Source of the DNA: Marinobacter sp. LV10R510-11A
GTDB taxonomy: Bacteria; Pseudomonadota; Gammaproteobacteria; Pseudomonadales; Oleiphilaceae
DNA: 64,000 nt
Assembly (NCBI RefSeq): GCF_900215155.1
Contig: NZ_LT907980.1
Span: 2,046,001-2,110,000, forward strand
Reading direction: 5' to 3'
The notes beneath the pieces were generated by a model that was not told the DNA's origin, did no database searches, and saw only the letters and a program-made list of their open reading frames with translations. Shown here one piece after another: positions 4,302 through 41,459 of the stretch; positions within the stretch are counted from its first letter, which is position 1; every line of letters begins with the position of its first letter. A program made the position numbers and the translations under genes.

Positions 4302-5024
4302 ATGGGCAGAGCCTATCAGAACCGCAAACAATCCATGGCCAAAACTGCGGACGCCAAAACCAAGGTCTACAGCAAGTACGGGCGTGAAATCTACATGAGC
4401 GCAAAATCCGGTGGAACCGACCCGGATGGCAACCTGTCACTGCGGGGGCTGATTGAGCGCGCAAAAAAAGATCAGGTGCCTTCTCACGTTATCGATAAAG
4501 CCATCGATAAAGCCCGTGGCGGCGCCGGCGAAGACTACTCACCTGCCCGCTACGAAGGCTACGGCCCCGGCAACTGCATGGTGATCGTGGACTGCCTGAC
4601 TGATAATCCCAACCGCACCTTCGGCGACGTTCGCCTGGCCTTCACCAAGACCAAAGCCAAGATCGGCACACCGGGCACCGTCGCCCACATGTTTGATCAC
4701 AGCGCAATTTTTGTATTCAAGGGTGAAGAAGAATCCGCACTTGAAGCGCTGATGGAAGCGGATGTCGACGTTACCGATATTGAGAATGAAGACGGCCAGA
4801 TCACCGTTTTCACGCCGAACACCGAATACGCTAAAGCCCGCCAAGCACTGACCGACGCCTTCGCCGACATTGATTTCGACGTGGATGACATCCAGTTCCT
4901 GCCGAAAACCACCACAGTTGTGGAGGGCGATGACATCCCGATGTTCGAGAAGTTTCTCGATATGCTGAACGAGCTAGACGACGTGCAGAACATCTTCCAC
5001 AATGCGGAGCTGCCAGCGGAGTGA
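4302..5024 (+). CDS. YebC/TACO1-family protein (YeeN-like)
   Basis: A 240-residue member of the YebC/PmpR/TACO1 family. The family includes ribosome-associated translation factors and proteins described as DNA-binding regulators. Diagnostic segments are [13 protein letters not shown], the helix [21 protein letters not shown], and the acidic C-terminal domain ending [12 protein letters not shown]. The N-terminus [15 protein letters not shown] resembles the YeeN branch more than YebC proper. Its last codons overlap the following amidotransferase gene by 4 nt (GTGA), so the two are probably translated together. Confidence 0.9.
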
Positions 5025-38259: not shown

Positions 38260-38270
38260 TCGGGCATAAA

Positions 38271-38289
38271 AAAACGGGAACCCGCGGGT
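38271..38289 (+). terminator. left half of a palindromic terminator, split by the insertion
   Basis: The A-tract and CGGGAACCCGCGGG here and the TTCCCG plus six T at 41448-41459 once formed one perfect 32-bp palindrome. It lay between the convergent dehydrogenase and response-regulator genes and would have terminated both. The insertion at 38290-41439 separates the two arms by 3.2 kb. Confidence 0.8.
38281..38289. repeat. 9-bp target duplication, left copy
   Basis: CCCGCGGGT, identical to 41440-41448. It defines the boundary of the outer element; an 8-bp reading (CCCGCGGG) is possible if the final T is counted in the element. Confidence 0.85.
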
Positions 38290-38336
38290 CAAGCCATTTA
38301 CCTTAAGTGTGGCTGAGGTTACTGACAAAACCGCTA

Positions 38337-38363
38337 GAAGCGCCTATACTACTGTATATACAG
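38337..38363. repeat. left half of a palindrome split by the inner IS
   Basis: GAAGCGCCTATACT (38337-38350) pairs with AGTATAGGCGCTTC (39421-39434). Between them, before insertion, lay the 12-bp palindrome CTGTATATACAG. A T5 follows the right arm and the transposase ATG begins directly after it. Confidence 0.8.
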
Positions 38364-39410
38364 GGCTATGTTGGCATCTGCTGTTGGTTTGTACTTATCG
38401 CAGCACGAAGCCACGCCTCCTCTGAAGCCGGCGCATTTTCGAACAGCCGTCGCCATGCCAGATAGTTCGGCAAATACGCTGTCCCCACACCATGAAAGCG
38501 GGCGATCCAGCCCTTCAATCGGCTTATATAACTGTTGACGTTTTGAATGTGGTATTCCCTGCCGATCACTCGTTGATTATCGAGTGCGATCAGTCGATGG
38601 TGGGCAATGCCATGGTCGCTGGAGAAGGTTTTATACCAGCTGTGGCCGTCTGAACATAAAATAGAATCACGATTGATAATCGGTGCCAGAAAAGCATGGA
38701 TCGTTGATTTGTTCAGCGCCGGATCCACCAGGTCGCTGACATGACCGTTGCGGTCTCGCGCAATAACCACCGGAATTTTATCCGCTTTTTTCTTCTTATT
38801 ACTTTCTCCGCCACGTTTTCTGGGGCTGCGATGAGTGAGGTTGCGCTTGCCCTTGCAAGACTCAGCAAAGAACGTTTCATCCACTTCGATAATGCCGGAA
38901 AGGGCATTAGCGTTGGCTTTTGCGCTGGTGCTCAGAAAACGGTGACGCCATCGGAAAGCCGTCTTCAAATCAATGCCTACTCGGGCTGCTGAAACCCGCA
39001 GGGTTAGGCTGTCCCGCATGCATCGCAAGTAATCAAACCATTTATGACGGTGATGCAGCTTGGCCAGCGATGTTCCCGTAACGGCATTGAAGGTTTTGTG
39101 ACAGCCCAGGTTCTGGCACTGATACCGCTGCAAGCCACCAGAGCGCCCCCATTTTACAAGGTGCTTATCGCCACAGTGAGGACATAGACGATGGAGGCTG
39201 GCGGTTTCGAGCAGCGTGTGGGCCTGAGCATTAATTTGCCCAAGGAGCTGATTGGCAAGGTGTTGTTTGAGATCAACTGGGAGGTGGGCCAAGGTCTTTT
39301 CAATGGCGTTGATGTCGGCTTGTTTCATAATTTGCTCCAAAGAGGAACCGGATATACAGTAATATATACAGTGTCACCGGAGCAAACCAACAGGTGATGC
39401 CAACATAGCC
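38364..39410 (-). mobile_element. IS1595-family insertion sequence nested in the outer element
   Basis: A 1047-bp IS. Ends GGCTATGTTGGCATC at 38364 and its inverse at 39410 extend to 28-bp inverted repeats with two mismatches. The flanking 8-bp ATATACAG is duplicated (38356-38363 and 39411-39418). One transposase, transcribed leftward, fills it. Duplication length and transposase type agree with IS1595. Confidence 0.92.
38366..39328 (-). CDS. IS1595-family (ISXO2-like) transposase
   Basis: A 320-residue transposase. An N-terminal zinc ribbon (CPHCGDKHLVKWG and CQNLGCHKTF) precedes the ISXO2-like DDE domain. Catalytic candidates are D in EVDETFFAES, D in LCSDGHSWY, and the N and K of NVNSYISRLKGW, the DDNK type of the IS1595 family. 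The start at ATG 39328 has GGAG at 6 nt. The stop codon lies inside the left inverted repeat. The gene is complete and likely active. Confidence 0.92.
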   Translation of the reverse strand: MKQADINAIEKTLAHLPVDLKQHLANQLLGQINAQAHTLLETASLHRLCPHCGDKHLVKWGRSGGLQRYQCQNLGCHKTFNAVTGTSLAKLHHRHKWFDYLRCMRDSLTLRVSAARVGIDLKTAFRWRHRFLSTSAKANANALSGIIEVDETFFAESCKGKRNLTHRSPRKRGGESNKKKKADKIPVVIARDRNGHVSDLVDPALNKSTIHAFLAPIINRDSILCSDGHSWYKTFSSDHGIAHHRLIALDNQRVIGREYHIQNVNSYISRLKGWIARFHGVGTAYLPNYLAWRRLFENAPASEEAWLRAAISTNQQQMPT

Positions 39411-39439
39411 ATATACAGACAGTATAGGCGCTTCTTTTT

Positions 39440-41269
39440 ATGGGAAAGAAATCTTTCCAGAATAAACCGCCCCGCATTCCCTTCCCGTTCGAAGGTATTC
39501 AAGTCAATGGATGTCGAAATCCGACGTGTGAGAATTTTTTAACGCTTAGTCCGATCAAAAATATTGATGGATGTGAAGGGGGTATTCCTGAAGCCTTCCA
39601 GAGAGGCGGCGGATCCTATCGTCTATCTGGAAGGGGTAAAGCCAAGGCATCTCTGATTTGTGAGATTTGCTCCAAGAAAAAAGCTCTGGGTGAAGATGTT
39701 AATGCTGTATCAACCGCTCTAAAGAGTAATCAGGCTGTCCACGAAGAGCTTAGTAGGATATCGAGCCACCTAGATCCAAAATCAATTATCTGCCCAAACT
39801 CAAAATGCTCAAGCAATATGGATAAAAAGCCTATTTCCGTCAAAAAGAATGGCAAAACGACTAGCGGAAACCAAAGGTATATTTGCCTTCACTGTCGGAA
39901 GAGTTTTTGTGGTAAACCGAAGGCTCGCAAGCACTCCAAGCCTCATTTAAACAGGTTACTATTCAAGCTCCTGGTCAACAAACAACCGATCAACCGTATT
40001 GCTGATGTTTTGGATATTTCAGAAAAAACGGTTTACGACAAAATCAGATTTATTCATCGCCAGTGTTTATCGTTTGTTTCTGAGCGAGAGAGAAGACTTG
40101 AGAGCAGAGTTTTTGAGCGATTTTATCTTTCAACAGACCGTCAAGTTCTGATGACCAACTGGACTCAACGAGGTGACAAAAGGAATTGCGACCTCTACGG
40201 AATTGCCACGGCATGCTTGAACTCAGGCTACGTTTTCGCTTTCAACTTTAATTACGATGGCTCTGTGGACTCCAGTTTGGCAGAGCGGGACTCAGTTGAT
40301 AGTGGTGATCACGAAAGACCAAAACACCACCGAAAACACGCTAGAGTCTGGTTGAGCGAGGAGTTCAATGACGCTGTAAAGAATCGCTTACCTAGAGAGA
40401 AGTTACCATATGCCGGAAATCTTAGAGATGAAATTCAGATCAGAGCTCTGATCGAAAAAAGCTCTAATGTTCCCGATTCGTCGGAGAACATCGATCAAAC
40501 AAAAAGTCTTCCTAATCGCGGTGCCTTGGTTCATAACGAATACACCATGCTGGCTCACTTCTTTTTACTGAAACGGTTTTTCAGGAGCACAGGGAAAACT
40601 CGCTTCTTTCTGGATCTGGATAGCGGGATGAAGACGGCCTATATTTCTGCGTTTCGTGAGGAAATTGGAGAAGGCCGATCCGATGGGTTCTTAGTTAGGG
40701 CTTCGAAAAATAAAACAAATGATGAGAAAGAAAAGCTGGTAGCAAATTTCAAACGCATGGTTTCCAAAATGTCAGGAACCCCAGTCAAACAGCTGACCTT
40801 CAAAATCCTAATGGATGTAACTAACGGAATTATCGCGGAGCGTTTAAAGAAACCCATTAAGGTTCCGAACTCGCCTGAGTTTTGGATTGAGCATCCATGG
40901 GTGTCCAAGGCAGAGCCGGAGAAAATGGTGGCTGCGGTGACGAATGTGTCTAGGTACGACATTCTGCACCAGGCCAACCTCTACCGCATGGTGACCCTAG
41001 CTCCAGTAGATCGCTTTTTTATGAATATCCGCAGGATGTCTATGTACTTTGAAAGGCCATTCCAGTCAGGCACCGGGATGGGGCGTATCTGGCACGGATA
41101 CTCTGCATATAACCCTGAGATGTACACCATAGTGGGTGACATATTCAGGATTCATTACAACTACTGCACAAGATCAAAGAAAAAGGACACACCCGCCATG
41201 AAACTGGGGCTTGCAAAAGCCCCAGTCACTGTCGAGAAAATCATTTATTACAATCGATATGCTGGATAG
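39440..41269 (+). CDS. large putative transposase of unrecognised family
   Basis: A 609-residue protein. The N-terminal third has several cysteine pairs (C25/C30, C74/C77, C118/C123, C149/C152 and C157), as in zinc ribbons. An HTH follows at about 184-205 (INRIADVLDISEKTVYDKI). Candidate DDE catalytic residues are Asp233 (LSTDRQ), Asp394 (FLDLDSGM) and Glu538 (SMYFERP). The ATG lies directly after a T5 run with no ribosome binding site, so the true start may be internal. It is bracketed by 28-bp inverted repeats, hence transposase. Function is inferred, not recognised. Confidence 0.7.
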   Translation: MGKKSFQNKPPRIPFPFEGIQVNGCRNPTCENFLTLSPIKNIDGCEGGIPEAFQRGGGSYRLSGRGKAKASLICEICSKKKALGEDVNAVSTALKSNQAVHEELSRISSHLDPKSIICPNSKCSSNMDKKPISVKKNGKTTSGNQRYICLHCRKSFCGKPKARKHSKPHLNRLLFKLLVNKQPINRIADVLDISEKTVYDKIRFIHRQCLSFVSERERRLESRVFERFYLSTDRQVLMTNWTQRGDKRNCDLYGIATACLNSGYVFAFNFNYDGSVDSSLAERDSVDSGDHERPKHHRKHARVWLSEEFNDAVKNRLPREKLPYAGNLRDEIQIRALIEKSSNVPDSSENIDQTKSLPNRGALVHNEYTMLAHFFLLKRFFRSTGKTRFFLDLDSGMKTAYISAFREEIGEGRSDGFLVRASKNKTNDEKEKLVANFKRMVSKMSGTPVKQLTFKILMDVTNGIIAERLKKPIKVPNSPEFWIEHPWVSKAEPEKMVAAVTNVSRYDILHQANLYRMVTLAPVDRFFMNIRRMSMYFERPFQSGTGMGRIWHGYSAYNPEMYTIVGDIFRIHYNYCTRSKKKDTPAMKLGLAKAPVTVEKIIYYNRYAG

Positions 41270-41360
41270 AGTTGACCGGCTAATTCAAGCCAAAAGCTCA
41301 GGTTTTTTTCGTTGGGAAGCAGGGATGCCAAAACGTCTGCGTTCAGAAATTTTGAATGAA

Positions 41361-41397
41361 GAAAAGCCAGTGATTTTTGGTCACTGGCTTTTCTTAC
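41361..41397 (+). terminator. terminator of the 609-residue transposase gene
   Basis: Perfect 13-bp stem GAAAAGCCAGTGA (41361-41373) with TCACTGGCTTTTC (41381-41393), 7-nt loop. It lies inside the element, 15 nt before the right inverted repeat. Confidence 0.85.
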
Positions 41398-41439
41398 TTG
41401 GCTTGCCCAAGCTCAGCCACACTTAAGGTAAATGGCTTG

Positions 41440-41459
41440 CCCGCGGGTTCCCGTTTTTT
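41440..41459. terminator. right copy of target duplication and right half of split terminator
   Basis: CCCGCGGGT (41440-41448) repeats the left flank; TTCCCG and six T follow. Together with 38271-38289 it restores a perfect 32-bp palindrome. The response-regulator gene ends 24 nt to the right and now lacks this hairpin on its 3' side. Confidence 0.8.

Follow-up and report, generated by a model that had tools for sequence, protein, structure and literature searches.

Nested insertion sequences at an intrinsic terminator and a LexA-like box in Marinobacter sp. LV10R510-11A

What kind of mobile element occupies positions 38281-41448 of a 64,000-nucleotide stretch of the Marinobacter sp. LV10R510-11A genome (contig NZ_LT907980.1, positions 2,046,001 to 2,110,000; the whole stretch is called the window here), and what kind of site did it enter? 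An initial annotation, made from the sequence alone, described a single, possibly undescribed insertion sequence (IS) whose only protein was a 609-amino-acid (aa) transposase of no recognised family. Its boundaries hold: perfect 28-bp inverted repeats at 38290-38317 (plus strand) and 41412-41439 (minus strand) are enclosed by 9-bp direct repeats, CCCGCGGGT, at 38281-38289 and 41440-41448, and the 609-aa open reading frame (ORF) extends from 39440 to 41269 on the plus strand. The 64-kb window contains ten perfect inverted 20-mer pairs, nine of which fall within the 28-bp repeats and one in the arms of a flanking terminator; thus, the repeats exceed chance expectation. The element is also AT-rich as described (G+C is 0.443 for the outer IS once the insert is removed and 0.534 for the window). 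However, the locus is one IS inside another. A second transposase of 324 aa, encoded on the minus strand at 38366-39340, matches the IS1595 transposase model (NF033547, 198.3 bits, cut-off 75) and belongs to an overlooked 1,047-bp IS of the ISMsa1 group of the IS1595 family (38364-39410, minus strand). This profile match in the left third led us to reject a single element with an unusual left part. The outer IS spans 38290-41439 on the plus strand with the insert, and about 2.1 kb without the inner IS and one copy of its 8-bp repeat.

Together with this nesting, three points form one joint reading that we hold with good confidence: the outer transposase is of the DDE/DDD type and joins an IS1-like zinc ribbon and a helix-turn-helix (HTH) to an RNase H domain that is IS256-like and holds a helical insert; the outer IS enters mostly intrinsic-terminator hairpins, often in the loop, and duplicates 9 bp on insertion; and the inner IS1595 group inserts exactly in the N8 of CTGT-N8-ACAG LexA-type operators, the box at this locus included.

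The source genome, a single contig of 4.44 Mb, holds three near-identical outer IS copies besides that of the window, one with a broken frame (L009), one with an internal deletion (L010) and one with another IS within its ORF (L011), as well as a diverged copy (L012, 52% identical) with a long open frame. L012 and L013 also contain isolated ends that enclose no gene. The copies at other sites agree in their ends and in the 9-bp duplication, which bears out the boundaries; the identification of the element as an IS also holds. The five own-genome duplications are all different (CCCGCGGGT, ACTAGTAGC, GCATCACTG, GCTGCGTGC and CCCGTAGGA), and at all five sites the order is A-tract, stem, loop, stem, T-tract. 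The IS lies inside the hairpin, a terminator target that had gone unnoticed. At the window site, the left half of the host terminator (A-tract and stem, 38268-38289) ends in the left duplication, and its right half begins with the right one (41440-41459). Because the 9-bp repeat is also part of the palindromic terminator, the two flanks are nearly reverse complements of each other. The gene flanking this site, a regulator, was matched in 120 of 124 genomes of the genus; among the best 11 of the 120 matching genomes, the A-tract, hairpin and T-tract are kept at the junction in eight, and one relative (L151) has exactly the predicted uninterrupted terminator.

Two-ended outer sites were drawn from Marinobacter, other gammaproteobacteria, Pseudomonas, Rhizobium, one other Pseudomonadota genome, Staphylococcus and Enterococcus. 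The set leaves aside loci with an end missing or beyond the stretch (L017, L042, L043, L093, L094, L112, L114, L117-L119, L121-L124, L127-L131, L133 and L134), the one-ended L013 and two further ends in L012. Identical duplications flank 16 of the 17 two-ended sites, 14 of 9 bp and 2 scored as 10 bp. Flank pairing was compared with that at 5,000 random window positions, a site passing when it paired better than 95% of them, and 12 of the 16 duplicated sites passed. Ten of these 16 sites combine A and T runs of at least 4, as do 0.62% of controls, and an A-run of at least 4 precedes the element in 9/10 one-ended left flanks (exception L124).

Several results weigh against a terminator target. 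L045 has both outer ends and no duplication; L111 and L126 fail the pairing test, both lying by eye at a terminator edge; L095 and L120 lie outside terminators; and the control positions were random, intergenic and genic alike. Since the controls include genic DNA, part of the terminator bias may reflect survivorship. Survivorship might even explain the whole bias, if the outer IS inserted with low specificity and harmless intergenic insertions were those that persisted, a reading that gains from the breadth of the control, from L095 and L120 and from the position of the window site between convergent genes. We consider it improbable, since the insertions are precise, inside or at the edge of hairpins and across genera, and since the other IS1595 and intergenic insertions in the survey as a rule do not lie in hairpins (judged by eye).

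The 609-aa protein is likely the transposase of the outer IS, as first supposed. The resemblance to IS1 noted then is borne out for the zinc-ribbon/HTH part; the IS256-like catalytic fold had been missed. The NCBIfam IS1 model matches residues 133-210 (E 7.5e-13) and finds all 16 members of the family alignment (A4), and the zinc-binding N-terminal domain of IS1/IS1595 (NF050000) scores 31.3 bits against a cut-off of 28, with 16/16 members at E <= 0.01. The outer IS could accordingly be a long member of the IS1 family, whose 9-bp duplication it shares together with an N-terminal zinc ribbon, present in 16/16 members, and HTH. That placement was rejected on coverage and fold and is very improbable: the IS1 match reaches 48.9 bits against a cut-off of 100 and covers only model positions 8-84 of 199, the protein is three times as long as that of IS1, and its different catalytic part is closest to the IS256-family ISCth4.

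Like IS256 and the other prokaryotic Mutator-like (p-MULT) transposons (PMC3942029), the outer family combines an RNase H fold that has a helical insert between the second and third catalytic residues with duplications of 8-9 bp (14 sites with 9 bp and 2 with 10 bp), inverted repeats in the 18-39 bp range and a terminal C; the Tn7491-like L096 and L097, whose ends start with T, are exceptions. Unlike that group, it has a terminator target, IS256 insertions being described as random in the same source, and its third catalytic residue is probably D in place of the E that ends the p-MULT triad: D233, D392 and D524 are found in 16/16 members and E538 in 15/16. The Tn7491-like L096, with N at position 524 where other members have the third D, speaks against this assignment. 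The C/D(2)H motif, described for p-MULT in PMC3942029, was sought 11-19 aa after the second D and found in 0/16 members.

The outer IS belongs to a coherent and apparently unnamed family, characterised by the IS1-like zinc ribbon, the IS256-like RNase H fold, CAAGCC-type inverted repeats and 9-bp duplications. Its members occur in Marinobacter, other Pseudomonadota and Gram-positive plasmids, with the close relatives of the 609-aa protein among named records confined to Marinobacter. With weak and partial matches counted, the family was found in 9/145 relatives (own genome included), 4/369 genomes of the class, 9/398 of the phylum and 10/118 of one gammaproteobacterial family. Among 72,556 plasmid records, 114 match, 85 of them from Enterococcus; among the 40 matches listed, most are annotated as 'hypothetical protein' and a few as 'insertion element protein' or not at all. 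Viral contigs contributed one distant relative of the 609-aa protein and phage records two, both from Staphylococcus. Longer relatives with open frames of 818-858 aa (L121, L129, L130, L131 and L134) match the family in separate blocks, and a search for the element ends of these longer forms found none. Two elements of about 2.69 kb (L125 and L126) seemingly carry extra sequence within the repeats, 3' of the transposase gene.

One distant member already has a name. A Gram-positive member lies in the dfrG transposon Tn7491, itself inside Tn6198, and L096 has the same ends as the published Tn7491, for which a 9-bp duplication is given. In tblastn searches, the 609-aa protein aligns with Gram-positive members over 96-98% of its length at 24-26% identity (25-26% for the Tn7491 protein), and the duplication length is the same. 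Judged by this homology over most of the length and the common 9-bp duplication, the two proteins form one family. Tn7491 also resembles the outer IS in its hairpin site with A and T runs (L096 and L097); it differs in carrying dfrG and a further ORF, in its ends, TAAGTAGTTCAG, in the lack of a LexA-like box in the stretch checked and in the N at the third catalytic position. The accessible part of the Tn7491 paper (PMC10763498) assigns the transposase to no family, and its main text has neither the word 'transposase' nor 'terminator'; the paper places a second copy in S. aureus between the convergent genes csbB and saeS. Two adjacent hypothetical proteins are mentioned in PMC4432960.

The inner IS poses the second targeting question. 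Its transposase shares 85% identity with one from an ISMsa1-family element, and the IS is flanked by an 8-bp duplication, ATATACAG, of the length typical of the IS1595 family. These 8 bp are exactly the N8 of a LexA-like box in the leader of the 609-aa gene, a box not noticed before: CTGT (38352-38355) and the left duplication (38356-38363) form its left half (38352-38363), the right duplication (39411-39418) and ACAG (39419-39422) its right half (39411-39422). All five two-ended outer copies of the genome have an IS1595 at this same leader point. Since two IS1595 types are found there, in both orientations, a single IS1595 inherited by all outer copies was rejected.

Close matches to the inner IS number 16 (77-100% identity) and come from 9 of 124 genomes of the genus. 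ACAG stands at +9 to +12 beyond the IS end in 15 of them, and the left half-box is also present in 12 (CTGT in eight, CTGG in one, TTGT in three). With a plasmid copy (L098) and a viral contig (L141), 17 of 18 close-group copies lie at LexA-like boxes; L051, L059 and L060 have common flanks and may represent one insertion event. The CTGT-N8-ACAG consensus was built only from sites already seen to match and thus describes them without testing them. The second IS1595 type (323 aa, about 45% identical) occupies box sites in 5/5 own-genome copies, four inside outer ISs, and IS1595 elements from other families of the order (L078 and L080) also lie at such boxes. Free LexA-type sites are few: the genome contains a single perfect TACTGT-N8-ACAGTA, and the number of sites is 10 when up to one mismatch is allowed, compared with 8 for the reversed control pattern.

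This habit is confined to one part of the IS1595 tree, which sets the inner IS apart from the rest of its family. In a tree of 45 rows, which left out L063, L052, L080 and 7 duplicate rows, the 22 LexA rows all belong to a single half of 27 rows (split support 87/84); the trait requires 4 changes, against a shuffled mean of 10.0, with 0/500 shuffles as low, a contrast inflated by near-copies. Sites for L052, L065 and L080 came from separate flank reads. LexA targeting as a general IS1595 property was rejected, other sites being used by L056, L057, L066, L074, L077, L084, L086, L099, L101, L102 and L105. Four non-LexA rows within the LexA half tell against a strict rule: L079, L100 and L103 use other sites, and L049, the lone exception among the 18 close copies, has neither box nor duplication, its protein being identical to that of L098 in the part used for the tree.

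Neighbouring genes were read at 14 IS1595 loci. The neighbour is umuD at five (L050, L052, L067 in part, L080 and L098), CLCA_X at two (L053 and L071), a PA0069-type radical SAM protein at one (L058) and an Rpn nuclease at one (L078); PA0069 and rpn genes are SOS-controlled. Nothing linked to the SOS response was seen among the neighbours at the remaining loci (L048, L059, L061, L064 and L107). At L053 and L071, two IS1595 types lie at the box before the CLCA_X gene in two species, a hint of LexA control of CLCA_X. On the viral contig L141 (IMG/VR), a CTGT-N8-ACAG-type half-site adjoins an IS1595 end of 80% identity, and what looks by eye like umuD lies just beyond. The IS1595 relative in L106 (about 1246-1522) is next to an integron integrase gene and has CTGT close to its left end.

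Recognition of the LexA-type operator by the inner IS is inferred from these sites. The element might instead recognise the leader hairpin or another palindrome, LexA boxes being entered only as palindromes with TACTGT half-sites. The long hairpin around the box at five outer IS copies fits this alternative, as do tandem TACTGTATA repeats that the IS itself has before its gene; sites outside the outer IS lack a long stem yet keep CTGT-N8-ACAG, often before umuD, and we regard the alternative as rather unlikely. The TACTGTATA-like repeats, which equal the target half-site, stand just before the transposase gene in the window (39351-39373) and in L048-L050.

The leader bears on how the outer IS may be controlled. 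In the window, a promoter-like sequence for the 609-aa gene, identified by eye (38322-38350, plus strand; CTGACA at 38322-38327, 17 bp, TATACT at 38345-38350), overlaps the left arm (38336-38349) of a hairpin next to the start codon; the right arm (39422-39435) is followed by TTTT and the ATG at 39440. A terminator-like hairpin also stands 3' of the gene (41362-41396, by eye). Strong hairpins near the start codon were seen by eye in 16 of 23 outer-family leaders, the others being L092, L093, L094, L096, L118, L120 and L124. LexA-like boxes were defined as CTGT-N8-ACAG with at most one mismatch. The hairpin tip is an exact box upstream of the start in 6/23 (the window, L017, L042, L111, L127 and L128) and has one mismatch in 4/23 (L018, L043, L091 and L133). 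The promoter of the host's lexA gene has a box of this type, and SOS control of the outer IS transposase is therefore likely. Reasons for caution are that no such box was found in 12 of the 23 leaders, that L045 has one only 3' of the start codon, that the stretch searched is partly coding in some rows, and that the shuffle control ignores palindromes, so a match within a palindrome is likelier than the shuffles indicate.

A mechanism can be sketched. The outer transposase itself would choose the terminator by recognising hairpin DNA or a stalled polymerase; the outer family also carries hairpins of its own. Transcripts entering from outside could fold the whole leader hairpin and stop before the 609-aa gene; the element's own transcript, starting beyond the left hairpin arm, would escape this stop. 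Because the hairpin tip is a LexA-like box in many gammaproteobacterial members, transposition is probably induced by DNA damage. The IS1595 group may read inverted TACTGT half-sites, or LexA itself, and would disrupt umuD and other SOS promoters. It is possible, and is proposed tentatively, that the intrinsic terminator and the LexA operator are true recognition targets, each of one DDE-type transposon, with the outer family SOS-switched in gammaproteobacteria and the IS1595 group homing to LexA operators and preying on SOS-controlled transposons.

Terminator stem-loops are known targets of group IIC introns and IS1272. This kind of target is therefore shared with other systems; what appears to be new is the enzyme family that makes a 9-bp duplication in the hairpin. 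The introns and IS1272 use different enzymes, and neither is known to make a 9-bp duplication in the loop. TnGBS, ISLre2 and ISKra4 likewise have Mutator-like transposases aimed at a regulatory signal, the region upstream of sigma-A promoters (PMC3942029). In the open-access literature searched, neither the targeting of LexA operators by an IS nor the terminator preference of the outer family was found described.

If these readings are correct, they add an IS family that spans Pseudomonadota and Bacillota and is mostly labelled 'hypothetical protein' in the plasmid matches listed, and they indicate a gene probably responsible for mobilising the dfrG transposon. Both target rules are open to direct mapping of new insertions. 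Terminator targeting would give the outer family a harmless landing site, and LexA-box targeting would link transposition precisely to the SOS regulon, where IS1595 insertions would rewire mutagenesis genes such as umuDC.

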